The position numbers and the translations under genes were made by a program. Shown here one piece after another: positions 20,730 to 52,700 of a stretch of 64,000 nucleotides of DNA. Under the pieces are notes generated by a model. It was not told the origin of the DNA and did no database searches. It saw only the letters and a list, made by a program, of their open reading frames with translations. The stretch's first letter is position 1, and each line of letters starts with the position of its first letter. This DNA comes from Peribolospora baueri (lineage: Eukaryota; Basidiomycota; Peribolosporomycetes; Peribolosporales; Peribolosporaceae). The DNA is taken from contig JAMDHS010000036.1 in assembly GCA_029717555.1 (NCBI GenBank), positions 124,001-188,000 on the forward strand. Reading direction: 5' to 3'.

Positions 20730-22877
20730 ATGCCCAGACCAAACACCTTCAAAGAGCGCAAACGCCGACGCACCGCCGCCGGCGGGCGACCTGGTGGCGG
20801 CGCTCGCATCGACTATATCGACGAGACTGGCAGCGATGTCGAGCTGGGCGGCGGAGGTGCGGACCTTGCTTCCGGGGATTGGGGTGACATGGAGTGGTCG
20901 CAGGACGAGGACGAGGACGAGGAAGATCTGTGGAGGAAGGGGTTGGTGTCTTTTGGCGGCGGCGGCGGTGGTGCAAGGACGATTACCCGCTCCACCAACC
21001 GACAGTCACAGCAGCAGCGACGAGGCAACAAGCGAGACCGGCACCGGCACCACACCCAACAGCATCCAAGCGCCCCCTCGACGAACGAGGAGGAGGAGGC
21101 AGAAGCTCTCCGGGCGCGACGGCGCTCTGCGCTCGTTCAGCGAGCGTACGAAGCACGAGTCGTGCGAGATGACAAGCTGGCGGACGAGGTGATGCTCCCC
21201 ATGCCTTCTTACGCCGCCGACCCCCAGCAGGGGCGAGAGCGAGATCGAGACGGTGACGAGTGGCGAGAAGGCCTAGAGCATGTTGCAGGAGATGGAAGGG
21301 CGGCTATGGGTTTGGGCATGCACGGGCTCATCAAGTGGACCGGCGAGGTGGAGGGCAAGAGGGGGGAGACGGTGGAACTTTGGGTCGACAGGTGCGCTTT
21401 CCACCCTTCTGTTTGGTCATGTCAAAGGGATGCGGATACGTCCTCGTTTTCGGAACCACTTCAGCGAACCTTCTTTCTGCTCTCCGCCCTCGAACCGAGG
21501 CATTTCGATGTGGCCGAGTTGAGCGTATCATCTGTAATTCACCGCTTGTCTTCCCTTGGAGGCGCTCACCTTCTTGGAGGCCGCTGTCGCATCCATCTCT
21601 ACATACGCGGACGGGGAATGGTGTAGATGTCGTCTAGCGGACTGTTTCGAGCGAAGGGAAAGAAGAAGGGAGCAAGGGGAGGTACGGAGGGAGAAGGGCC
21701 AGCCTATCTGTCCCTCATGGCGTGACGACGGCGGCCACGCCAGGCCGGGCGAACGAACGCACCGGAGCCGCTCTCGCCCGCTCTCTACACTTCCTCCCAC
21801 TGAACTGCTCCTCTCCTCCTCCCCGCCGGAACTCGCAGGTTCGACGCCCTCCTCCTCCTCCCCACCGTGCCGGCCCCCCCGCCAGCGTCGGGCACGAAAG
21901 GAGAAGCCCTTCCTACGGAGACACAGGCGCAAGCTCTTCCTCCAGACCCTTCCTCGGAGCGAGGATGGTCGGACCTGGACAGCGACGCCGAGGACTTGTT
22001 CTTTATGGAAGATGACGAGGCGGAGGAGTACCTCCGGGACAGGAAGAGGAGGAGGCTACTGGACTTGAGACAACGGCGCGTCGAGGCCCTCGGCGCTGAA
22101 CGGGGCGACGAAGACGGGATGTGGGGAGGAAAGGAGGACGAGAAAAAGGACGAGGAGGAGGAGGACCCAAACGTGGTGAGTGCCGGTACAGGCGAACCTT
22201 TTTCCAATGCCATCTCACTCCATGGACTCTCGATCATCGCCGGCCCGGCCCAGCCCTGGCCTCGTCTCACGCTGACCGTCTTCATCGTTCCTTCTTCGTT
22301 TGCGACCCACCGATTCCGACGAGACCAGCCGTCAGAAGACCAGCTGACGCTGATGCGCGCGACAGCGCGTTCCATCCTCTCCGCTCCCAACACCTCGGTG
22401 GCGGAGATGCGCGTGCTCGTCAACCACGGCAGCGATCCCCGGTATGCGTTCCTTCGACGGGGGGCGCAGCAAAAGTGGAAGGAGGTGTGGGAGAGATTGA
22501 GGAAGGGAGAGGCGGTTGTCTTGAGGAAGAAAAAGGGCAAGGAAGAAGGGATGGAGGTGGTGGGCGAGCAGGAGGTGGAAGAGGAGGAGGATGACAAGGG
22601 CAAGGGCAAGAGCAAGGCTTTGCTGGTAGATTACGGGAGCGATAGCGATAGCGACAGCGGCGGACAGGGTGAGACGGACGTGGTCACGCACGGCCCGACG
22701 GCGTCGGCTCCCGCAGCTTCGACCTCAGCACCTGCCGCTCCGTCGACGACGACCCTCACACCAACAGCAGCAAGCCCTCGGGCGCCGCCGCCAGTGGACG
22801 ACGCAGAGAAGGCGAAGAGGCTAGCGAGGGCCAAGGAGTGGGCCAGGAAGCGCAAGGAGGCCAAAGCGTCGCTGTAG
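20730..22877 (+). CDS. CCDC97-like (DUF2052) protein, probably U2/SF3b-associated
   Basis: Exons: 20730-21391, 21839-22175 and 22329-22877, phases 2 and 0, 515 aa. Family-like segments are GLIKWTGEVEGK, ELWVDRFDALLLL (spanning intron 1), then GWSDLDSDAEDLFFMEDDE, RDRKRRRLLDLRQRRVEAL, and LMRATARSILSAPN with RVLVNHGSDPRYAFLRRG near residues 335-385. The human CCDC97 protein is known as a partner of the SF3b part of U2 snRNP. The N-terminus is Arg/Lys- and Gly-rich; the C-terminal 130 residues are disordered and end in a basic helix. Intron 1 (447 nt) is several times longer than the other introns of the window. Intron 2 is 153 nt, a multiple of three and without a stop, so its retention would keep the frame. 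Family assignment is from memory of motif order and is fairly but not fully sure. Confidence 0.75.
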
Positions 22878-23365: not shown

Positions 23366-26300
23366 TCAGTCGACGAGCTCAAGCATCAGCTCGCCTCGGA
23401 CGGCGTTGAATAGCTTCAGGCGCGCTCCCTCCTGTACGGGGCACAAAAGACAAGCAAGAAAGACGTGGGCGCGAGCCGACGAAACACGAAAGAGAAAGCG
23501 GTCCTATCAGTGAGGTCGAGCGAGGCAAGATGTCGGACTCGGCTCGACTCCACTCACCTTGACGGCTTGCTTCAACTCTGCCACGGTGAACTTGCCCTCA
23601 ACAAGCTCGCCCCTGTCCATCAGCTCCTCCCTCATCACTCCAGCGAGGAGCCCACAGTCCAAAGAAGGTGTGACCCATTTGAGCACCTTCTCTCCGCTCC
23701 TCACAGAGTCGTCCACCGGCATCTCCAAGGCGACGTTGCCGATGGAAGATTCAGTGACATAGGAGCTGGAATTGAACAGGATCACGTCAAAGAGCGCTGG
23801 TGGGGGTCCAAGACTGGCTCCTTTGGGGTCGATGATAGATGTTGATGACCAGTACGAGTTGAGAGATGGATAGAATGAGCCCTGGGCCTTGACCCAAAAC
23901 TCGCCAGGAACATCTCCTCTTCCGATAGCTCTGCTCACCATGCCTCGCCCTCGCATCATCGTACATGGCCCTGCGCGTCGTCTTGTGTGCTCCAAGCGCG
24001 CCTGGAGAGCCTGTCGGCCTGTCGTCCAGTTTGACCTTGTACAGAGCTGTGTGAGTGCGCAGTCAATTTTAGCCTGCTGCACATCTGCCCTGAGGCCAGC
24101 GAGGCATTTCATATCTGTTGCTTGCGGAGACATCCTCGTGACCGGCGCATGCTGATGGAAGAGCAAGGAAACACGATTCATACCCACTTGAATGCGCCTT
24201 TGGTTGCGTTGGGGGCAAGACCTGACTCGTAGCTTCCGGCCCACCCTTGCGAGGGATCGTGAGGCTGATCTGGTGCCGCACGAGTGTGTGGTGCGAAGGA
24301 ACTTGAAGAGATAAGAGAGCGAACAGAGTTTGACAGCAGTGAGGGCACTTCCTTCCTCTCACCTTCTGCTTGTGCTCCGTTCCAACGCTCTGCACACATC
24401 TCCTCAGCTCCTTCAACACCTCCTCTTCATCGATCCGTGCGCTTGCCCACTCTTCAGGGCTCTCCTTCCGGAAAGCGTCCAGCGACCGGTGGAGTCGCAT
24501 AAAATGCCGAGGCAGGAGAAAGAAAGTCTCTTCGACCATTGGACCGTTTGACTGAGATGGTGCCAAGGAAGGGTCGTACAGGATGGCCGTGAGCAGAGAG
24601 TAGTCGTTCTCCACGCCCTTCTCCTCGCATGCTGAAATCGGAGACGTTCCATTTTGGACATTGGACGAGATTACGGCCTGAAAAGAGAAAAAAAAAAGCG
24701 GGGCAAATCAGACGCAGTGATGCCATCAACACGCCGCTTCTCGGCTGTACCGAGGCCGCTTTAAGACGGCAATACGAAGATTCAACCCGACATCACTCAC
24801 GTATTTCCCGGTTCTCGTCCATGTACCTCCGCTCTCCTCCTCCAGTTGATGCAATTGCACCCTGCTCTTCAGTCCGACGCACACGTCCGCCTTGTTCGTC
24901 CTAAGAGAAAGCAAGGTGACCCCCTCCCATCTGTCTCTTCCTGCCGCGCGCTCGGAGGGAGAAGAGCCAATGGCGTCCAGGAAAGGAGTGAGGGGATCCC
25001 ATTTGGCGTCACTGACCAGTTTACGGTAGTTCAGGTCACCCTTGAAAATAACAAGCGAGGAGTTGCGGAGGTCCGAATGAAGATCCGGGGACACGGAGCG
25101 GAGGCGCCAATATGGGTTTTGGGTCTGTGGACAAGCGGAGGCGTACGATGGACATATGAGCTTGACCGTATGAGCTTATGCGCCGCCGAAACCACCCTAT
25201 TCTCAGGGCAGGAGCATCGGCGGCCGAACAACAGACGATCATCAGAGTGGAAAAGCAACTAACAGTCCAAAACTCATCCGCACGGACTTTGATCTTGCCC
25301 TGGTCGAAATAGACCCTCCACCTCTTTAGCAGTTCATCAATTACCTCCCTCTTCCCTTCCGGGCCAGTGCCAAACACGTTGGGGTCGGCGAGGAGGGAGA
25401 AAAGAGAGTCGATGTCGGAGGGGACCACGTCGGACACAAACCAAGAAAAGTTCTTGGGGTGAAGGAAGACTTGGGAGGCGTATCCCGCATCGAGAAGGTA
25501 CGAGGTAAGGATGAGGTCCGCATAGAGCTCAAATCCTGAGCATAATGGTCATATTGATGTGGCGAAGGGGAAGTCAAAAACTCAGTATATAGCGACCTTG
25601 GCTGCTGGTGGGAAAGAGAGAGGAAGCTAAAAGCAAAGCACAAGACCTCACCAGAGTTGTCCAATACAATATCGACCCTTCCGTCCCTCAAGTTCTTGAT
25701 GTGATTCCACACCTCGTCCACGTCGTTGACGATAACGTTCTTTTGCGAGGCTGCCAAGCCAAATTAAAGAGGGGTACTGTTCAAGCTCAATGACGTCACG
25801 CACACCAGAGGGGCCATGCTCCTCCAGTCACGATGGTCGCACGAAAGCATCCGCACGTCGCACCTTTGATGGCTTCCTTCCCTTGAAGCTTCTGGATGTC
25901 CTCGTAACTCAGGTTAGTGAGAAGAGAGAGGTCCGTCGCGTTTCCCCAGAGGGATATCTGGATCATCTCGTCCTGGGGGAACGCGACAAGTTCATATCAG
26001 CCGATAGAGCATGCTCGTCAGTCCAGTGTCAATATTGACAAACAAACAATGAACTCAAACGCACGAATATGAGCATCCTAGCTTCCTCCTCCCGCGTTTC
26101 TTTCCGTCCACTCTCGAGCTCCTTGACAAGTTCGATATACCTGGCCGCCAACTCCTCGATGGCAACCTTGGACGCGACGAAGGTGGAGTCCTTCTGACGC
26201 TTGAAAATGTCGTACGTCTTCCAGCGCGGTGATTTGGAATTTGAGAAAAAGGTGTGGAGGAGGCGGTAAAGATAGCATTCTGGACGATACCATACGACGG

Positions 26301-26918
26301 AGGAGGGCGTTAGGACAGTGGATTTCCTCCGATCAACCATGGCGAGGGGAGCAAAGCTCACCGGTGTACAGCCACGGGGAATCTATCCACTTGGCATCCT
26401 TAAGAAAGGCGAGCTCATCATTATAGGATGCGACGTCTCCACCGCCGTCCTCTGGGATGGGCCTGCACGCAAAAAAGAGTGAGTACCGACAGTAAATTCG
26501 GTGAGGTGGAAATTGGGCCAAGTATGCCGAAAGATGCACAAGCTCACTTTAGCTTCACGTTTCCTTTGATCGCCTCTACTACTAAGGAAATCTCTTCCGC
26601 AATCCTTTCTCCTTCCTCTTTCTCCTCTTCTGTCAACGAAGCGTCCTCGGCGAGCGTCTTGAGCACGTCCTCCCGAGCGCCGTTCACGATCTTCGGCCAG
26701 CGGTCTTTGGCGGTCTCGTGCGCGAAGGTGCCCGGTACGCCCAGATGGCACCAGGCTTTAAAGAGAGGATGAGTCAAGAGACAGAGGCTTAGAGCGCGGG
26801 CATGAGGCATTTGCAAGGCTCAGTAGACCCTGCTTGATCGAAGTAGTTGCGACCCAACATGGCGCAGGAACTCACGAACATCGCAGTCGTCGGGCGAGTA
26901 TTTGCGCAGCTCGGTCAT
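23366..26918 (-). CDS. Predicted fusion: ARMT1/DUF89 metal-dependent phosphatase + aminodeoxychorismate lyase
   Basis: Thirteen exons (minus): 26918-26876, 26755-26548, 26462-26362, 26279-26065, 25972-25864, 25750-25652, 25535-25264, 25124-24801, 24677-24363, 24269-24188, 24046-23939, 23796-23558 and 23431-23366; 726 aa. Residues 1-457 are a complete DUF89 subfamily III protein (human ARMT1, yeast YMR027W): [19 protein letters not shown] (~255-259), [10 protein letters not shown] (Asp379, metal site) and [12 protein letters not shown]. Residues ~470-726 are a complete class IV PLP fold like ADC lyase: [31 protein letters not shown] (Lys611, PLP lysine), [39 protein letters not shown] lyase makes p-aminobenzoate and pyruvate for folate; DUF89 enzymes hydrolyse sugar phosphates as damage control. 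The junction, exon 8 to exon 9, is phase 0 with standard GT-AG, and no ATG precedes the lyase part. The acceptor of exon 12 is the least certain. Confidence 0.8.
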
Positions 26919-27487: not shown

Positions 27488-29397
27488 ATGCAGAGCCTTC
27501 GCTCCGCCTTTCTGCCTCTCGGCGGCACCTTCCTTCGCGGTCTCGGGGTTTCGCCCGCGGGTTCCTCCCGACTAGGACTCGGGCTAGCAGCACCCGCAAG
27601 TGGTCTTCGAGGCTTTTCTAAATCGTCCACTCGCCTTGGCCTCGAATCCTCCTTTCGGCCTCGCCGTGTCCAGCGTCCCCTGGCACAGCACGCTCAAGCG
27701 CTTCGAAGCCCCTTTCCCGTTTCCGCTGGTGCCCACGGTCGCACCTTCTCCACCACCGCTCGTCGCACAGCGCGTCAAGGGGGCCGCTTCCAGCAAGCGT
27801 TTGCGAGTCCTCACGGCGCTCTCGACGCTGATGCGCCCACTTCTATCGCTCAGCCTGGTGGATGGGCGAGGGTGCTGACTTCGCTCGGGATCATTGGCGG
27901 CACAGCCTATGCCGGTGAGTGGCGAGGAAGAGCGGCCTGGACACCGAGGCGGTCGATGGCACGATGTTTGAAGGAGCACATGAACCTGGTTAGCGACGTT
28001 TCATGACCTTCCTTCCCTTTCCCTCTCGCACCAACTACTTCAGCGAATCTCTTCTTCAACCGCGAGACCCGTGCTCCTCTCCAGCTTTTTGAGCGTGAAT
28101 ACCTCAACTCAACCTTTCGGTACCTCGCCGGGGGACTGACGATGACGGCCATTACGGTGCGTAACCAATCTCAGTAAAGGCTTTCGTCTTTTTCACTTTC
28201 CCTTGGGTTGACAAGTACAGTGCCTAATTGAACTCGGTGAAGCCCTGCTTCCTCTTATTCACTCTCTTATATCCAGGCTGTCGGCCTGCACAGGATCGGC
28301 TTCTCAAGAACGGTTATGATGGCGAATCCTTGGGTCGTACTCGGTGTGGGCCTGCTTGGCAGCATCGGTGAGCATTTGTTGCGGGCATTTCATACGCGCG
28401 CCAGGCTATCGTCAACGCCATCCATCTGAGTCAACCTCTTCTTTGCGCACATGTAGGAGGAATGATCGGCACTCTAAGCATCTCTCCAGAAAACAGGATG
28501 TCTAAGTTCGCCAGCTGGGCGCTCTTCAACTTCAGTCAAGGTGCCGTTCTCAGCCCGCTGCTATTCTTCAGCCCTGCCATTCTGGCCCGCGCCGGGCTTT
28601 ACACTGCCGGAATCATGGGGGCCCTCTGTGCGTAGACTTTCCCTCGTTAGGTCGTCAGTTGGATTCCGGCCTCTCCCTTTCACTCATTCCTCCATCCACA
28701 CTCTGTGTCTTGAAGGTTATATTGGCGCTACTGCCCGCGACGGCCAGTATCTCTGGCTCGGCGGTCCTTTGCTGGCAGGTGTCACTGTGGTAAGTATGCT
28801 TTCCGGGCCCCTTTTTCGTCATGCTGTCTAAATAGGTTACATTTTCATCCGTCCCTGCCTTTTACTCCTTCCCACTCAACCTCGCCGCCAGGTCGCCCTC
28901 TCATCCCTTGCTCCGCTCGTCCTCCCGATGACTGCCTTTCGCGCCCTCGCCGTCACCGAGGCAGTCACTCTGTATGGAGGGCTCGCCGTCTTCGGAGGCT
29001 TCATCCTTTTCGACACGCAGAAGGTCCTTCGCGACGCTGGGTTGGTCGCTAGCGGCCAGATGAAAGCCGACCCTATGGCGGAGAGCGTCGGTCTCGAGCT
29101 GGATTTGTGAGTCTCCGATGTCATCACACTCTCCTCATTGTGGCACTCACCGTCTATGTGGTTGAGGTATCGATTGATGTCCTCCCGTTACCGACTTGAC
29201 TCCATGCGTGCAGCATCAACATTTTCGTAAGTGTCACCCATCGGCCTCTGCCCTCTTCTTTCCCGGCTCGTGAGGACCATACGTTCTCACTTACGAGGCC
29301 ACGCTCGCTGAATCGGCCCATTTCTCGCTTCTTCAAACTGTCACAGGTCCGCATGGTCCAGATTCTGGCTTCGAGGGAGGGTAATAAGCGGCGTTGA
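27488..29397 (+). CDS. GHITM/TMBIM5-like inner mitochondrial membrane protein (Bax inhibitor-1 family)
   Basis: Eight exons: 27488-27914, 28044-28156, 28277-28367, 28457-28627, 28716-28789, 28892-29106, 29214-29226 and 29347-29397, phases consistent, 384 aa. The first ~110 residues are Arg/Ser-rich with an RTFSTTARR element, a strong mitochondrial presequence. Then come the Bax-inhibitor-1 membrane segments: REYLNSTFRYLAGGLTMTAIT, NPWVVLGVGLLGSIGGMIGT, LYTAGIMGALCYIGATAR and LYGGLAVFGGFILFDTQKVL, where the conserved FDTQ appears. It ends INIFVRMVQILASREGNKRR. Animal GHITM (TMBIM5) sits in the inner membrane, acts in cristae structure and has been described as a calcium/proton exchanger. Exon 7 is only 13 nt. 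TMBIM family membership is firm; GHITM rather than a cytosolic BI-1 is supported by the presequence. Confidence 0.88.
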
Positions 29398-32189: not shown

Positions 32190-33395
32190 TCACGACGCCT
32201 CCGCCGCCGCCGCCGCCGCCTTCTCTTCTCCTTCCGGTTGCCGTCTCGCCTTGCCTTCTCCACCCTCTTCGCCCGCGCCGGCCGCGTCGTCACTTTCGCC
32301 CGCCTCGCCCTCCGTCTTCTTCTTCCTCCGATCGATCTCTTCGTAGAACTCGTTGGCATCGTTCATCTTCTCCACCTCCTCGTTCATCCTATCCAGCCAT
32401 CGTTGGAGCAAAGACGCGTTGTCCCGCTTCAGATCTTCGTTTCGTGCTTCGATTTGGGTGATCTCCAAAGAAAGCGCTGCGAGATCGTCTTGGAGAATCT
32501 GCGAGGGCGAGGGCAAGGGTCCATCATGAGGGCAAACGGAAAAGATAGCTTAACCGAGTGGATGAATGGCGGGCGCCTCTCCCCCTTGTCAAGTCAGCTC
32601 ACCTCGATGGCCCGCTCCTTCTCCCTTACCACGCCTTCGTGCTCCTCCGCTTTCTTCCTCATCCTTTCTCTTTCCTCTCTCAACACCCTCAGCTCCTCCT
32701 GATCCACTCGAGAAGTTTCTTCCCTCTCCCGTAGCCTCTCGTTCATTACCAGCAATCGCTGCGCGTTCTGTCCCTGTGTCTTGTATAACGACGCCATCTC
32801 ATCGCGGAGCTGGGACAGCTGCGTTTCCAGAGAGGCGACATAGGCTGCTCGGACAGGGTTGCTGTGATGTGGGAACGATGCGGGAGTGAGAAGCGAGAGG
32901 TGCGAAAGGTGTCGCGCTACAAGCAAGTTCCCGGGCAAGGACAACCCAGACTCACTCGGCCCCATCTCCACCCCCACCACCGGCAGACGCCACAGCGCCT
33001 TTCCCCTTGACAGTGCCCGTCCCTGCGTAGCCCCCTCCACCAGCTCCGTCGCTTCGGACCGAACCGGCCGCCCGAAGGAGCGACTGGTTTCGCTCTTTGA
33101 GCATGCGGGTCTGCTGCGCCAGTCGACGATCTACAGAATGATTTGTTGGCCAAAAAAGATCGAATCGACAGGGGGGATTGAATCGAAAGAAAAGTTAGCC
33201 AGTCCGTCCAAAGTACTACGCTCCATTCTCAATATTGGATTGAGAAAACCAAAGATTGAAAACGAAAGAGAGACCGATAGCAAGATATCAAATCCCCTCA
33301 CAGCTCTCAATAAACCCCAAATAAGCCTTCTCCCTCGTATCCCTCTCCTCTAGTCTCTGTCGCAATATTTCTTGCCACGGTACGCCCGCGGCCAT
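32190..33395 (-). CDS. ATG16: Autophagy protein ATG16
   Basis: Four exons (minus): 33395-33302, 33130-32956, 32861-32603 and 32498-32190, phases 1, 2 and 0, 278 aa. The N-terminus MAAGVPWQEILRQRLEERD is the short amphipathic helix that binds ATG5. It is followed by RRLAQQTRMLKERNQ, a Gly-rich linker, and a long coiled coil (residues ~95-235) starting YVASLETQLSQLRDEM and including LQDDLAALSLEITQIEARNEDLKRDN. The C-terminal 40 residues are Glu/Ala-rich. As in yeast there is no WD40 domain. ATG16 forms the ATG12-ATG5-ATG16 complex that conjugates ATG8 to lipid on the phagophore. Confidence 0.9.
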
Positions 33396-34274: not shown

Positions 34275-35547
34275 TCAGGTCAGGTTGTTGAAAAGACGGT
34301 CTCCCTGGGAGGGTGAAATGGGAAGAGCAACTGAGTTAACGGCATCAACGGCATAGCATCGACGAGACTGGTCTGCAACGCACAGAGTCACCGAGGCCAG
34401 GGAGGATATATCCCGCATCCGAGAGCGTTTCATCCACTGCTCCGACCCTGGTAGGTTAAATAGAGAAGCACATCGTGGAGCCCCAAATTGAGCAAGCAAC
34501 GATAGCGAACGGGGAAGCGATAGGCGGTCCCAGTTCATTAACAAAGTACGCGGAGCCGACACTCACCAAAGCTGGATGTCGGGACACTCGGCGAGGACGT
34601 GCTCGACGCCCTTCCTGGAGCCGAGGATGCACAGAAAGTGAATTTTGTCAAAGGGGATTCCCCATTCGTTCTGATAGCGTCAAATTGCATCACATTACGT
34701 AGCTCAGTTCAGGCGTTCAAATAGGGCATCCAATGATGAAAGGAGTCCTTGAAGGTCGCATTCACTCACGATCATCTTGACACACGCAATTGCCGTTCCA
34801 CCGGTCGCAATAAGCGGATCAAGGATAAAGACGGTGTCCACGTTGGGCTGGGCCGGCAGCTTGGAGTAGTACTCGACGGGCTGAATGACGAGCGCGAGAG
34901 ACAAGAAGAAAGGGATTAGATTAGATCGACGCGTATAGAGGAGGGAAAAAGAAAAGGATCTATGGGAGCTCATTCAATGTCATCTCACCTGAAGCGTGAA
35001 CTTTTCCCTAAATAAGCCGATATGCTGCACGACGGTCTGGGGCGGGAAGAGGTCGAGAAGAGCTACAGGCAAGAGAAGCAGGGAGAAAGGTGAGAGGGGA
35101 AGGAAACGATACTTCTCCCATCAGGGTGGGCGCAGCAACAAATACAACAATGAGCAATTGGAAGGTGCCTATTTCACTCACCATCCGTCATACCCAGACC
35201 TGCGCGAAGGATGGGTACAAGGCCGATGCGGTCCTGAGATTCGGTTGGTCCGAAGAGAGGGGCAGTGAAACGGGAAGGAACAGCATAGTGAGAAGCCTTT
35301 TCTCCCCGCCGTCAGCGCCACCTCACATCCAGAAGAAGCTCACCGCCAGCTCCTCTCCTGAAAAGGTCTGGAAAGGACTCTGAAGACCGTCGACCTTCTT
35401 AGTGGGGAGGCCCTTGCTGGCCTCGATGGCGAGGATGGAGGAGATGTCCTTGACGAGGGCGCGGAACTGCTTCGAGTCAGCCCATACTTGGCGAAGGAGG
35501 GTGAGCTTGGAGGAGAGAAGAGGATGCTGGACGACGTGGAGGGACAT
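34275..35547 (-). CDS. FUR1: Uracil phosphoribosyltransferase
   Basis: Seven exons (minus): 35547-35344, 35233-35182, 35062-34989, 34880-34770, 34670-34567, 34447-34384 and 34304-34275, 212 aa. All family blocks are present: SLHVVQHPLLSSKLTLLR, RIGLVPILRAGLGMTD, QTVVQHIGLFREKFTLQP, the PRPP loop FILDPLIATGGTA, FLCILGSRKGVEH, and the C-terminal YILPGLGDSGDRLFNN. The enzyme converts uracil and PRPP to UMP in pyrimidine salvage; in fungi it also activates 5-fluorouracil. The last exon is only 30 nt and completes the conserved GDRLFN end. The start is the ATG directly before SLHVVQHP. Confidence 0.93.
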
Positions 35548-38142
35548 TGTGATGGTCACTGGGAGAGATGGGGAGGGAGTAAGAGATGCAGAGGCAAGTG
35601 TGCTGAGGTCCGGTCTGGAAGGAGGCGGTTTGTGTACCGGGGCGACGGAAGCAGAATCGTTATCGCTCGATCACTATCTTCGACGTGGCCAGCCGAGCGG
35701 GATATAGAGCACGCAACGAAACCTGCTTAGCCCACCACCATCAAGATGGAAAAGCAGCCCACACGTCTCACAGACCGTAGACAATCTCGAGTTATCCCGA
35801 AACAGTCCCACCTGAGGGAGAGATGGACATTGAGACTTAGGATTTACGGCTTTTCCAGCTCGACCACAAGCTCTCCAACGGCTCATCCACAGCGCGGATC
35901 CAAGGCGAGCAGACTTGTCCGCACAGGCCCCAAGTCTTCGTATCTCTTTCTATCGCCCGACAAGGAAGACTACTCAAGAAAAGGGAGCGATAATTCGAGT
36001 TTTAGGATTCCATTGCCAACATTTGCACACACAAGCCTGCATCTCTGCAAGCTGGATACCTCTGCCGTCATACCGTCCTGCGGTCTTATGTCCGGGCTAC
36101 ACAGACTTCTTTACTTCCCTGCGAATGTCTGAAGATTTTCTGGCACTGAGTAATCCTGCCATGAAGACAGGTAGGGACCGTGCGCTTTGGAACGACATCT
36201 GCGTTGAGAACTTTGTTCTCTCCTGTCTGGCTGCTGAGACAAATAAAGTCACCCATGGCTCTTCTTTCGCTTTTCCGTCTCGTCGCCACCCGCATCGTCG
36301 CATTTCTCTCTTGCCTCCGACTTATCGTTGTACTTTCTGTGTAGAGTTTTCATGATGACGTCCAGCGGTAGTGAGAGAGTCGAACAGGTCGCACGGCGCC
36401 GGGTCAGAGCGCTATCTGTATCCGCTGGCGCCTTATCAGCCGGCCGTTGTGGGCTTCACTCGCTCTCCTCGTAACTGTATAGTTCACCAGCCTGTTGGCA
36501 GCAAATATGTGGTTTGAACATGAGAACGAAACTTCTCTAACAGGACCGGCTAAGCGCAGGTCCGGCTGGACTGTCTTTGAGCGCTTGGATGTTGTGACTT
36601 GAGGTCAAGGCCTTTCATTCATCTACGCGGGCATCGTTCACCGCAGCGACGTTCGAGCACGACAGGCTCGAACGAGACGGCCGAGAACGGTCGCACATCA
36701 TCGCACATCATCTTGTCCTCTACAACCGCCGTTCTTCTCCCCGTGAGACTGCCCCTTTCGCCTGCTTGTCTTTCGCCAGCCCGGAATTGGAGCGGACTGG
36801 CAACTGTCGACAGAGCCGACGGCGTTGCACTTTTCCTGCCTACCCTTTCCTGTGTGACCTTCAAGGGCAAGGAGTGTTTGGGGTATGATAAAGACGACGT
36901 GGACTGAATAGACGACTGGGGCGAGCTACTCACACACGGACGGCTCGTCCGCGGCGTTCCTTTGAGGAACTGGCCTAGAAAAAGTGCCAAGCGGTCGCGT
37001 ATGTATTGTTTGAATGTTGGCGATTCGCTTTAGTAAAACGTTCAGCTGTGCTCGTCTACAGCCCGAAGAAGAAAAACCAGAAATGCTGGCATCACAATTG
37101 GTTGAGCTGTGGTGAGCAACTTTGACGATCCATGCTTCCAGCGCCGGCTGGAGGTCTGGAGCTGATTGTCTTTCCCTCCGATTCCATCGTCAGCGCGTGT
37201 CTCCGTCCGTTGTCCGCACGGCTGCAAGACGCTCAAGATGGATTATATGCAACACGTCACCTCGATCACTTACGACGAGAAGAAGGAGCGCCCGCGCCTC
37301 GTGCGAATGTCGTGTCTCCGTGTGGTGGAGGAGTGCATCGTCTAGACGATAAAGGAATACGTCAGTGACTGTCACCCTTTCCTTCCGTTCCATCCCAATT
37401 TTACCTTCTGATGTCACCTTACCCACTTTCGTCTGACAAGCCTTGCTGGTGTGATGTCGATAACCCTGACTGGCTGGTCGACCTTATATTCGATTTCAAT
37501 CGTTCCTTTAATGTGCGCTTCCCTTCGAAGAAGATGGGAAGCTATTTTGAGGGAAGGGGGTGAAGCCGTCGTTGGTCAAGGGAAGATGCGGAAGACAACG
37601 TAAGCCCGACGCTGTTTCCTGGCGCATCGTAGTGGCCTCTCGTCCCGCCTGAGTGCAGCTCCGAGGTTAAGAGGCGGGGAAGGATGGATAGAATGTTTTC
37701 GATCTCAGTGTGACGATTCCCGTTTCGTCCGGTTCCTACCGACGTGGCATATATGCGTATACCTGGCCCCAGCGATCATGGCGGTTCGAGAAAAGAAAGA
37801 CTCTCATCGTTGTACAAGCGTGTACCTTGCAAGGTTCGTTGCAGCCCGTTTCCCTTGTTTGTCGCACGTTGTCTCCACGCGAACCGGTCCGCAGTCATGG
37901 ACTGATGCAAACCGGCGTATATTATTTGGGTTGCTGTACTGGATTAAATAAGTATACGTCCGGGCTCATATCACGAGCCGCCCCAACCGCCGCGATCGAC
38001 CCCCTACCGCCTCACCGTCACGCAAAGACACTGCTCATTCGGCCCGTCATACCACCGTAGAACGCCAACTTCGCTTGCTTGTCGCTTTTCTCCTTGTTGT
38101 TAGCTCGATTTTCTTCACCCATCTCCCCGACAATTGGCCACC
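35548..38142. other. 2.6 kb region between divergent FUR1 and YPT7
   Basis: Two divergent promoters lie at its ends. In between I find no convincing gene. A short ATG frame at 37238-37345 reads MDYMQHVTSITYDEKKERPR and continues to a stop after 35 codons, preceded in frame by CPHGCKTLK. It could be part of a small spliced gene but matches nothing I know. Many short frames elsewhere look random. Confidence 0.45.
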
Positions 38143-46622: not shown

Positions 46623-48383
46623 CTACTTCTTCCGCTTCTCCCCCTCCTTCTTGGGTCTGGACCCGCCGTCGTCCACCTCCACGTCGGTGTCTCCATCTCG
46701 TCGTCGTTTCTTCTTCTTATCCTTCTCCCTCTCCTTTCCATCTTGCCTCTCCTCATCCCTTTCGCCTGCCTCTCGCTTTTTCTTCCTCTTCTTCTCCTTC
46801 TTTTCTTCCGCCCCTGTCGCTAGCTTGGCGTCTGCAGGCCCTTTAAGCGACACGGCAGGCTCTGCCGCACCCACAGCGACATCCCGGCCCTCTTCGTCCT
46901 TACGAAGGTCCTTCTCTCCCTGCTCCTCCTGTTCCTCCTCTTCTCCGACAACCCAAACAGTCTTCTTTCCCTCCCCCTTCTTCTCTCTCCCGCTCCTAGT
47001 ATGAGCCGTCGCTGCGCTCTCGACCGTCACAGGGCCCGCCCTACCTTCCCTCTTCGCCTTAGCAATGGCTACGGCGGCCTTCCGAGCCGCGAGCTTGCGA
47101 GAGAGGTACTCTTGTACAGACAAGCCGGCAGAGTTGTTCGCTATCTGGACTCGGTCTTCTGCGCCGTTGTTCGTCGAAGTCGTTGTTGCGGGGTCCGGTG
47201 CAGGCGTAGTTAGCGACGTTGATGGTGTCGTACCAGCGGGGGTGCCTTGCTGAGAAGAACTGGCTGGCGCGGTCGAGATAGGCTCCAGCTTAGTGGCAGT
47301 AGGCTCTTCATCGTTCGTCGTCGTAGAGGAAGACTCATCGTCCTCCTCGTTCCTTGCATCCTGGAACGCCAGCTTCCCTTTGTCCTTTTTTCTCTTCCCC
47401 TCCAGCTTCCGTGCGGCTTTTCGCTCTGCCTTTTCGCGTGCCTTGCGTTCCTTTCGCTCCGCCTTCGTCTCCTCCTTGGGCGGTTCGGCTGGAGTAGTCA
47501 CTTTGGCCGCTGGAGGAGACACTGGAGCAGGGGTGGAGGAGAGAGTAGCGGGAGACGACGTCCCGGAGGTGGAGGCAGAGATGCCGAGGATCTCGTTGAC
47601 CGACAGCATATTAACCCCAACGAGTCGCTTTGCGGCCAAAAACTTGGCTCGGTGACTTTGCGCAAAAGTAAGAAAGGACAGGAACTGGAATGTCATTCCT
47701 GTGATGCCTTCGAGCACATGATCAAATCATGCACCAACTTACGCTAATCGCACTGGCTTCGGAGCAGTAGGAACGTTCTCTGCGACGACCGTGGAATTCG
47801 TCTCAGTAGGCGAGAGGTGGGGCACGTCGATGGCCTGGGAATTGACAACACCAGTCGCCTCGGTAGTCTTATCCACTTTCCCTTCGGCCTTCTCGCCCTT
47901 CTTGTCCTTCTTGCCCTTCTTCTTCTCCTTCTTACCGTCTGCGCCGTCTGCTCGCTTGCGCTTCCGGGCAGCATTGTCGGTTGTAACCCCTTCCGTCGGT
48001 GGGGTCATTGTCGACGGCGAAAGACTGTCCATATTCACAGACTCCACAGACCCCGGAGCAGCAGGCGCGACAGCGTTGAGCTTGGCGAGCAAAGCGCCGA
48101 AGGCGTCGCTGTTGCCCAGCCAAGCCTCAGGGCCTGCCTTGCCGCTTTCCCTCAGCTCCTTCTCCCTGCGCTGACTTCCAACGCCCTTGAAATCTTGCTT
48201 GAACGCGACGGCGATGTGCTTGGACGTGCCCGTCCCCTCGAGGCCGAGCCCGCGGCCCGAGCCAGCGTCCCAGCCCATCTGGGCGAGCATTCGGTGGCCA
48301 TACGAGTCCTTGTTCGACACCCAGCTGTGGCCGCGAGGGTCGGGTCCAATCCGCTGCTTTTCGCGGCGGCCCGCTAATCCCAT
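46623..48383 (-). CDS. PXR1: G-patch nucleolar protein PXR1/GNO1 (PINX1 homologue)
   Basis: Two exons (minus): 48383-47743 and 47655-46623, phase 2, 557 aa (yeast Pxr1 is 271). The N-terminus MGLAGRREKQRIGPDPR leads into the G-patch: NKDSYGHRMLAQMGWDAGSGRGLGLEG, then GTSKHIAVAFKQDFKGVG, with WLGNSDAFGALLAKLN. The second conserved box, AHRAKFLAAKRLVG, is assembled across the intron and is followed by LSVNEILGIS. The rest is Lys/Glu-rich, ending in a basic KKKKRRRDGDTD-type tail typical for the nucleolus. In yeast the protein stimulates the Prp43 helicase in rRNA processing and restrains telomerase. Exon 2 is much longer than in the yeast protein, mostly low complexity. Confidence 0.9.
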
Positions 48384-49759: not shown

Positions 49760-52700
49760 TTATTTATGCTCCTCCTTGACGATGTCTTCCTTCCTCGGCC
49801 TCTCCTCCTCCTTCACCTCGCCGTCCTTCAAAAGCTGCTTGCCTTGCCCAGCAATATCCTTCGCGTCCTCGGTCCGAACGATCCCAAGCCCAATCTCCTC
49901 TCTTGCGAGGTCCAGGACGTGGTCGAGCGGTACGAGCCCGTCATGATCGATGTCAAGCTTCTTCACGAGCTTTTCGATCTCCTCTTCCGCCGGACGGTGT
50001 CGAATAACTCGAAGAGCCTGCTTGAGATCCTCGACGCTGATCTGACCCTGCTCGTTGGTCTGAATCGTGTTCATACGGTTCCCGAACTCCTTGTCGTACT
50101 CCTCCAACTGTTTGTCAATCTTCTCCAACAACACCCGTACCCGTTTGGCAAGGGAGCGCTGTGCGGCGGTCTGCGAAGTTGGCGGCGCCGCTTCGGCTTC
50201 CCCGCCTTCGGCCTTTGCTGCCTTCTGCTTATCCTCTTGCTCCTGCGGCTGCTGCGGCTGCTCACCCTGTGTGCACGAGCAAGGAAAGGAAAGGAAGTAG
50301 AAATGCGTCAGTTAGCTCGGAGGAGGACCCGCTTTATCCGAGCCGCATCTCAGTCTCACCTCTTCAGTCTGGACCACCTCGTTCATGAGGTGTGCCAGCT
50401 CTTCACGCTCTTTCAAGACGGCCGACTTGGCAGACAGGATCGCGCAGGCTTCGCCAAGCTCGTGGAGTTGCTCCTTCGTCATGCGTGCGTCTTCCTCGGG
50501 TAGTACCTCCTGGAACGAATGAATGTGATGTGAACACCAAAGCGTCAGCATCAGGTACCACTGCCTGTATCGCCCCGGTCGAGGAGTCGCTACTGATTTG
50601 AGAAGCACTGATTTGACACCAGGGAGACGATGACTCACCTCTCGCTCGGGCTTCATCTCCTTGGCCTTCTCCTCCTCCTTCTCCGCCTCGGGCGTCTCCT
50701 TCTCCTTCTGAGCCTCCCGCTCTCTCTCCTTTTCCTTTTCCGCCTTGCGTGCCTCCTCCTCTTTCGCCTCCTGCCCACGCTCCTCCTCGATAAGATCCTC
50801 CTGCTGCTCCAGGACCTCGAGCTTCTGCTTATATGTCGCAGAGTCCGGAGATACTTCGAGCTCGGCTTCGTTGAGCTGTTACGAGATGTGGCCGGAAAGA
50901 GGGAAAGGTGATACGGACGTTAGAGTATACCCTTGCTGTATCGGTTCCTAGCTGCGCAATCGACGGGAAAGAGGTACGAACAAGAGTATCGGGCAGAGAG
51001 CTCAACGTTGCTTCCAGGCTCTTCAGGTGACTATCGTCCTGATGTCCGTAGTTGAAGGCCTTGCTGAGGATGAGCAACGTCCCGGAGATGCGCGTGCGAA
51101 CGTGCAGATCGATCCACTGCTCTAGCTCCTCACGCAGCCGCGCCGGGGAGAGGCCAACGGTCTGGATACCGCGGGACTGGCAGGCCGACTGCAGCTCCGG
51201 AATCGTCAGCGAATCGACGCCTTCGGTCGCGATGGCCTGTAAGCGGGAGAGGGGGTTCAAAGTTAGACCGCTGTCCAGCAGCATCTGATAGCAAGCGATG
51301 AAATCGACGCACGATGTCGTCTCGTCTAATAGTCGTCAACCTGTGCCGAATCTGATAGCGAAGGTAGTTATCCGTGCCGAACGCGTTGATGCCCATGTAT
51401 CGACACATGCTGACGAGCTGGGGCCTAGAGAGGTTGTCGAGGGTGAGGTCATCCTCGAAGAGCTTAGCCACCTTGATGATGTCGTCCCGATTCGGCTCTT
51501 CACCGGTCGCGCGGACCTATATGAGATGGCAGATATATAAGAGGAGACAGAATCATAAGCACTTCGACCACCGCCTAGCAAGGTGAAGATGAAGGAGGAG
51601 ATGCGACGGCTTACCTTGCGGAAAAACTCTTTGAACTCTTCCGAGTTCTTAATCATCGCCGAAGCCTTGATGCCAGACTCGCGAATAGTTTCCTGCAGGA
51701 ACTTGGCCATCTGCAAGCGTACTTTGAGAAGCTTGCGCTTCTTCTCTTCCTAGGTAACCAAACCGGCCGAGATTACCAGTGCAAGACACGTGCGCCGTCA
51801 AGCAGGGTACATGAGATGATCGTGCAGTGTTAGCGCATCAAACTTACAGCAGCAAACTTGTCCTCGAACGTGCTCGGCAACATGTTGGGGAAGACCTTGA
51901 TGGCAACGGGGAGGAGTAGTTCTCCGAGCGGGATGATGATGAAGGGGATGAAAGGGATGAGGCGAAGGAGATCTTGCATTGTTCGCTTCAGCTGTGAGGC
52001 GCGGAGAGAGGTTTGTGCGGTAGAAAATCAAGGAGTCTATGTAAGCAAACTAAGGCTCTCTTGGTCAAATGGAAGTAGAAGAAAAAGGGGCGGAGGACTG
52101 GCCCCGTGAATTCACCTGACGGTGCTCTCGCCTCGTCAAAGTATATCCAGACATGACCCTCTTCAGCAATCTCGCCGAAATGCTGACTTCTTTCCCGAGC
52201 AGCTTGGTACCATGCCAATAGTGGATGGCACCATCCTTGACGGAGATCCACAAGCGCTTCATAAGAGGCTCTTTGGGCGTGGCTAGCGCCTTTGTGGAAG
52301 AGGAAGATTCCTTCCCCGTCTCTTCCTTCTTCTCCGCGACCGCCTGTGCTGGAGAAGACAACGAAGACTGAGATTCAGCTTTGGGAGTCGTTGTCTGCGT
52401 TGCTGTGGAGCTGGATTGCGATCGAGGGGGAGACAGTTGGGTCTGCGACTGAGGGGAGGAAGATGCAAAACGGGCGAGTACGAGAGGGGTCGCGGCTGTT
52501 CGACCCGGCCGTCTTCGCTCATCGGCCGTGAAGAGGTACGGCGATCGTGCGGAGCCGAGCTGGGCTGTCGCTAAGCGCACGAATGCGAGCGACGAGGCTG
52601 GTGGTGACGAGAAAAGAGGGAGTGTCAGAAGGGCGGCGAGTACGAGTCAGCAGCCTAATCCTGGAATCTGTGCAATTAGGCCATGGAGCGCATTATGAAT

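Follow-up and report, generated by a model that had tools for sequence, protein, structure and literature searches.

The locus described here raises the question of whether one gene of the basidiomycete Peribolospora baueri encodes a DUF89 phosphatase and an aminodeoxychorismate (ADC) lyase as a single polypeptide and, if so, whether the two halves share any metabolic purpose. The gene lies in a stretch of 64,000 nucleotides (contig JAMDHS010000036.1, positions 124,001 to 188,000; hereafter the window, whose own numbering is used throughout) with 58.4% G+C and no N. An in-frame fusion had been proposed at this position from the sequence alone (the original prediction), and we followed it up by rebuilding the gene model, examining the joint between the domains and comparing each half with its relatives.

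Gene structure and domain content

Rebuilding the model from the raw sequence returned the same single in-frame gene for DUF89 and a class IV PLP enzyme that had been predicted. Its coding sequence with introns, stop included, spans 23366–26918 on the minus strand, on which all features of the gene given below also lie. The open frame of 734 codons runs from 26918 to 23366, with an A at position −3 of the start ATG (26918), and is divided over 13 exons: 26918–26876, 26755–26548, 26462–26362, 26279–26065, 25972–25864, 25750–25652, 25535–25264, 25124–24801, 24677–24363, 24269–24188, 24046–23939, 23820–23558, and 23431–23366 (exons 1 to 13, respectively). The 12 introns are 82–141 nt long, and every one is GT-AG and phase-compatible. 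By arithmetic, a protein of 734 amino acids corresponds to about 80 kDa.

Pfam, searched with this protein at E 0.1 or better, returned two domains in the predicted order: PF01937 at residues 29–435 (E 4e-83) and PF01063 at residues 509–711 (E 2.6e-18). Both domains score well over their Pfam cut-offs, and the domain identity of both halves is far beyond chance. No second copy of either half was found elsewhere in the window at E 0.01. The joint between them is known from one sequence, and the same picture would result if an error in assembly or sequencing had deleted a stop, or a longer stretch, between two genes; given that the window contains no N and that nothing else in the domains or the twelve introns looks damaged, we regard this as very improbable.

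The joint between the two domains

Intron 8 (24678–24800; GTGAGT...TTTTCAG) follows codon 457 in phase 0, and its boundaries, type, and phase were the same in the rebuilt model as originally predicted. Its acceptor is the most pyrimidine-rich of the 12 (17/17, against 9–13 in the others). The role assigned to it as the domain junction was not upheld, since DUF89 homology passes the intron by 3–4 residues (GKY/AVIS, the slash marking the intron) and ends at query residue 460 or 461, not 457, in all seven matched PDB sequences. These seven are distinct sequences, with table rows for all and residue alignments for five, although several are variants of one protein: one is SPAC806.04c and two are SPCC1393.13 (both from S. 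pombe), two are identical or close to yeast YMR027W, and two are DUF89 by name only. As homology continues through GKY and AVI, exon 9 completes the DUF89 domain, and the domain border lies inside exon 9 (approximately 24665–24609). Exon shuffling at intron 8 was ruled out on the same ground. It also follows that a DUF89 message cannot reach its proper end without entering the lyase exon.

The conserved parts of the two domains are separated by approximately 57 nt, a spacer of 19 codons (24609–24665) that contains neither a stop nor an in-frame ATG, and the frame is open from the end of DUF89 through to the lyase stop. Openness and frame on their own are weak evidence for a fusion, as 19 random codons of the window are open with a probability of 0.654, which after multiplication by 1/3 for the frame gives a chance of approximately 0.22. 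The case for the fusion rests on the missing stop, the missing start, and the spacing of approximately 57 nt, a distance that would have to hold the stop and 3′ end of one ordinary gene as well as the promoter and start codon of the next.

When all ATGs within 25200–24601 were listed, none was in the lyase frame, in line with the claim that the lyase part has no in-frame start codon of its own, and a simple in-frame lyase start was therefore rejected. A start could be supplied from outside the frame: the ATG at 24822, followed by splicing from 24800 to 24632, would provide a short leader exon (24801–24822) for a separate lyase message. Two overlapping genes would then share the locus, one producing a DUF89 message and the other, from an internal promoter, a lyase message. 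This route uses the GTGAGT donor and leaves the lyase strand intact. Seven routes consisting of an ATG in 25200–24601 and a single intron reach the lyase frame, and this is the one among them whose donor is on a list of nine hexamers. Its acceptor at 24632 (10/17 pyrimidines, without a branch-like motif) is poorer than that of intron 8 but not inferior to some others in the model: 4 of the 12 introns have 10 or fewer pyrimidines at the acceptor, and two, 23938–23821 and 23557–23432, likewise lack such a motif within their last 55 nt. However, the ATG at 24822 has a T at −3, a DUF89 message that uses the acceptor at 24678 would continue into the lyase all the same, and with the acceptor at 24632 DUF89 would lose its conserved AVI end. 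We consider such a pair of overlapping genes unlikely.

Production of both forms, the fusion along with a DUF89 protein made by retention of intron 8, was given a similarly low probability and would be compatible with a real fusion. Translation into the retained intron would add 24 residues to GKY before a stop at 24728–24726, but at the expense of exchanging the conserved C-terminal residues AVI. A single fused message is the more probable reading.

The DUF89 phosphatase half

The DUF89/ARMT1-like part comprises residues 1–461, encoded by exons 1–8 and the first four codons of exon 9 (24666–26918). Its whole-protein score against PF01937 was 279.6 bits, compared to a curated cut-off of 25. 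The match to S. pombe SPAC806.04c extended over query residues 15–460 (E 1e-103), and identity over the aligned pieces was 44% to S. pombe Duf89 and 42% to yeast YMR027W. In the alignment of these three sequences D203, D256, N257, D294, D379, and K427 are invariant, positions which we take to be catalytic or metal-binding. All six of the positions checked are kept, in support of a DUF89 protein of the yeast YMR027W type. Work on fission-yeast Duf89 is said to have established a mechanism via an aspartyl-phosphate. Two conserved DUF89 aspartates have been described as essential (PMC9352595), and deletion of duf89 in S. pombe derepresses expression of Pho1, the protein being termed a phosphatase-pyrophosphatase (PMC11253589). 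Judged from its residues, the DUF89 half should be an active phosphohydrolase.

Relatives and lineage of the lyase half

The class IV PLP lyase part comprises residues 481–734, from exon 9 to exon 13 (23366–24608). In a single-sequence search its best solved relative was Mlr3007 (3qqm; E 7.5e-11), followed by yeast Abz2 (4k6n; E 6e-5), whose start resembles that of the window lyase (PNFEVLATFRYDP; an alignment with no significant score of its own). Five PRK07546 models of NCBIfam matched this half, all below their cut-offs. When the N-terminal 120 amino acids of the lyase were searched alone with phmmer, three matches were obtained, the best at E 0.21 and none of them a PLP enzyme.

A scan of GTDB genomes confirmed at least 552 relatives of the lyase half, of which the best 80 (27–43% identity to the window lyase) were analysed; similarity to the window lyase was the basis of selection, and the counts that follow stand without a control family. 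A PabB-like match was present in the same open frame at 43 of the 80 loci and within 1.5 kb upstream on the same strand at 35, which together account for 78/80. Both loci that had no PabB match (L045 and L049) are at contig ends, so PabB may simply have been cut off. Pfam confirmed Chorismate_bind in all 10 of the loci tested from among the 80. The association with PabB at 78 of the 80 best bacterial loci places the lyase half in the PabB-linked lineage and agrees with its prediction as a member of the ADC lyase family. Its tie to folate is one of descent only. DUF89 itself was found in none of four bacterial genomes that carry a related lyase and in none of 299 genomes of that phylum, a search whose built-in control found it in 3 of 14 known genomes.

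Active-site residues of the lyase half

For comparison of alignment columns, 79 of the 80 bacterial relatives were used, as L049 did not pass the filter. In this set 46 columns are conserved at 80% or more; the window lyase has the matching residue at 28 of them and differs at the other 18. Residues H515, R518, K611, R615, N642, E649, N654, T676, P677, G686, and R689 match columns that are invariant in 79/79 relatives. The core K/E/R triad of class IV PLP enzymes, for which we compared the residue sets in PMC3174152 and PMC8105722, is among these (K611, E649, and R518, respectively), and the PLP-binding residues (H515, R518, K611, E649, G686, and R689) appear intact from the alignment.

One exchange is at residue 488, which is Ala in the window lyase and Thr in all 75 relatives with a residue at this position (the other 4 of the 79 are gapped); yeast Abz2 also has Thr here (LATFRYDP). 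Through the ungapped flanks and the text of PMC3174152, Ala488 maps onto Thr29 of P. aeruginosa PabC, which O'Rourke and colleagues favoured as the proton donor and whose column holds T in 123 and S in 5 of 129 PabC sequences (PMC3174152). A second exchange is Ser564, in place of an Arg present in 78/79 relatives. Leu490 was considered as the loss of a further conserved Arg and rejected, as this column holds R in 32, A in 31, and L in 4 of 75 relatives. Residue 562 is Lys in the chosen model (R in 78 and K in 1 of 79 relatives) and, from the order of the motifs, may be the counterpart of PabC Lys80, a residue discussed as a possible helper or donor (PMC3174152).

Because Ala488 and Ser564 replace conserved residues, ADC lyase activity of the C-terminal half is uncertain, and the prediction of a complete ADC lyase held in part: the PLP domain is whole and its binding residues are kept, but the enzyme is not canonical. 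On the alignment, a more accurate description is a PLP domain that is complete but altered at one catalytic residue. The C-terminal half may have left ADC lysis and shifted to another PLP reaction, for example transamination, which would be compatible with a real fusion. In favour of such a shift are the loss of a residue that is T or S in 128/129 PabC sequences (PMC3174152), retention of the core triad, and the precedent of Rv0812, an ADC lyase-like enzyme with transaminase activity (PMC8105722). Against it, the role of the Thr is a proposal from modelling (PMC3174152), and the Lys80 counterpart may be present as Lys562, subject to the choice of intron 9. We consider a changed reaction doubtful, albeit more probable than the other alternatives considered.

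Splice choices within the lyase

To place the lyase introns, 18,942 open combinations of candidate introns were scored against a profile of the bacterial relatives. The chosen model ranked 107th with 127.0 bits, compared to 135.7 bits for the best, so the exact ends of introns 9, 11, and 12 are uncertain. Intron 24187–24047 was common to all of the best 15 combinations; these used the acceptor at 23797 throughout, as opposed to 23821 in the chosen model, and the exact chosen intron 12 was absent from them. The gain of the higher-scoring models may come from shorter insertions. The choice of intron 9 decides Lys562, as the two top-scoring models give Gln at this residue. Neither the fusion joint nor Ala488 is affected by the alternatives, the latter because the N-terminal strand lies within one exon.

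Neighbouring sequence and wider searches

A divergent gene probably begins approximately 570 bp upstream of the fusion gene, at the first ATG of an ORF (27488–29107, plus strand); two ORFs in this interval match Bax1-I (PF01027) at E ~1e-6 each, both below the Pfam cut-off. On the minus strand, ORFs at 32193–32549 and 35326–35670 match ATG16 (PF08614; E 1.3e-14) and uracil phosphoribosyltransferase (PF14681; E 3.7e-7), respectively. The top four open stretches by codon usage were 21804–22874 on the plus strand, which converges on the fusion gene, and 46626–47726, 50315–50878, and 49763–50311 on the minus strand; the first three of these had no Pfam match at E 0.01.

Scans of viral contigs, made with each half alone and with alignments, returned 9, 5, 28, and 85 pattern matches, among which no relative was confirmed. 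A plasmid search by DNA gave no match, and Rfam and tRNA scans of the sequence found nothing.

Proposed function and origin

Taken together, we put a probability of roughly 70% on a real two-enzyme fusion in which each half works on its own substrate and coupling keeps their expression and dosage in step, with known families combined in a new way. One gene would be transcribed into one message and translated into one predicted polypeptide of approximately 80 kDa. As a DUF89 protein of the fungal YMR027W/Duf89 type, its N-terminal half would be a metal-dependent phosphohydrolase that acts via an aspartyl-phosphate on Asp256, with reactive sugar phosphates or another phosphoester as the probable substrate. 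The C-terminal half would be a class IV PLP enzyme of the PabB-linked ADC lyase lineage, carrying PLP on Lys611 and probably acting on 4-amino-4-deoxychorismate or a close relative. The anatomy of the joint suggests that the fusion most likely arose when two tandem genes lost, by a deletion within the present exon 9, the stop codon of DUF89 together with the start of the lyase.

A direct metabolic link between the halves is possible. In its strongest form, a functional fusion would be maintained across a fungal lineage, with the DUF89 half as a phosphatase dedicated to folate synthesis and a lyase that works without the usual Thr; we consider this combination improbable. Such a phosphatase could possibly remove phosphate from dihydroneopterin phosphates, a step left to "a non-specific phosphatase" in a comparative genomics study of bacterial and plant folate synthesis (PMC1971073). 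Alternatively, it could possibly dispose of reactive sugar phosphates before they glycate p-aminobenzoate, an idea for which we have no source. If true, the joining of DUF89 to a lyase of p-aminobenzoate lineage would indicate that DUF89 acts on a compound close to folate and could assist in identifying a phosphatase of the pterin branch, much as the joining of DUF89 to a gene of a vitamin pathway has earlier served as a clue to what DUF89 does (PMC4921024, PMC9352595). If the fusion occurs in a single species, or if the lyase reaction has been lost, it would be a curiosity of gene joining.

Comparison with known systems

As had been supposed, no description of this fusion was found in the open-licence PMC literature, among the matches listed, although fungal proteomes may already carry it in their annotation. 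The one paper in that literature that names both DUF89 and aminodeoxychorismate lyase, a survey of metabolic gene fusions (PMC4921024), lists DUF89 with CoA (the CoA entry of its Table 4) and ADC lyase with p-aminobenzoate synthase, separately.

The DUF89 half shares its active-site positions and the C-terminal end GK[YW]AV with S. pombe SPAC806.04c/Duf89 and yeast YMR027W. The solved fungal DUF89 chains, of 439–472 residues, end soon after this motif, whereas the window protein carries a second enzyme. With yeast Abz2 and the Mlr3007/PRK07546-type lyases found beside PabB, the lyase half has in common the class IV PLP family and the HKTT-type lysine motif, and its N-terminal strand and C-terminal motifs are similar to theirs; it differs from Abz2 and the PabB-neighbour lyases in sitting behind DUF89 and in having Ala for the Thr of the strand. 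In bacterial PabB-PabC fusions, which are mentioned in PMC4921024 and PMC1971073, the lyase is likewise the C-terminal domain, but there the partner is the ADC synthase that feeds it, whereas here it is a phosphatase. PANK4, a pantothenate kinase joined to DUF89, resembles the window protein in that a DUF89 phosphatase is paired with a B-vitamin pathway enzyme, and its DUF89 domain dephosphorylates 4′-phosphopantetheine (PMC9352595). PANK4 differs in that DUF89 comes second, behind a kinase domain, and in that it belongs to the pathway of CoA and not of folate (PMC9352595).
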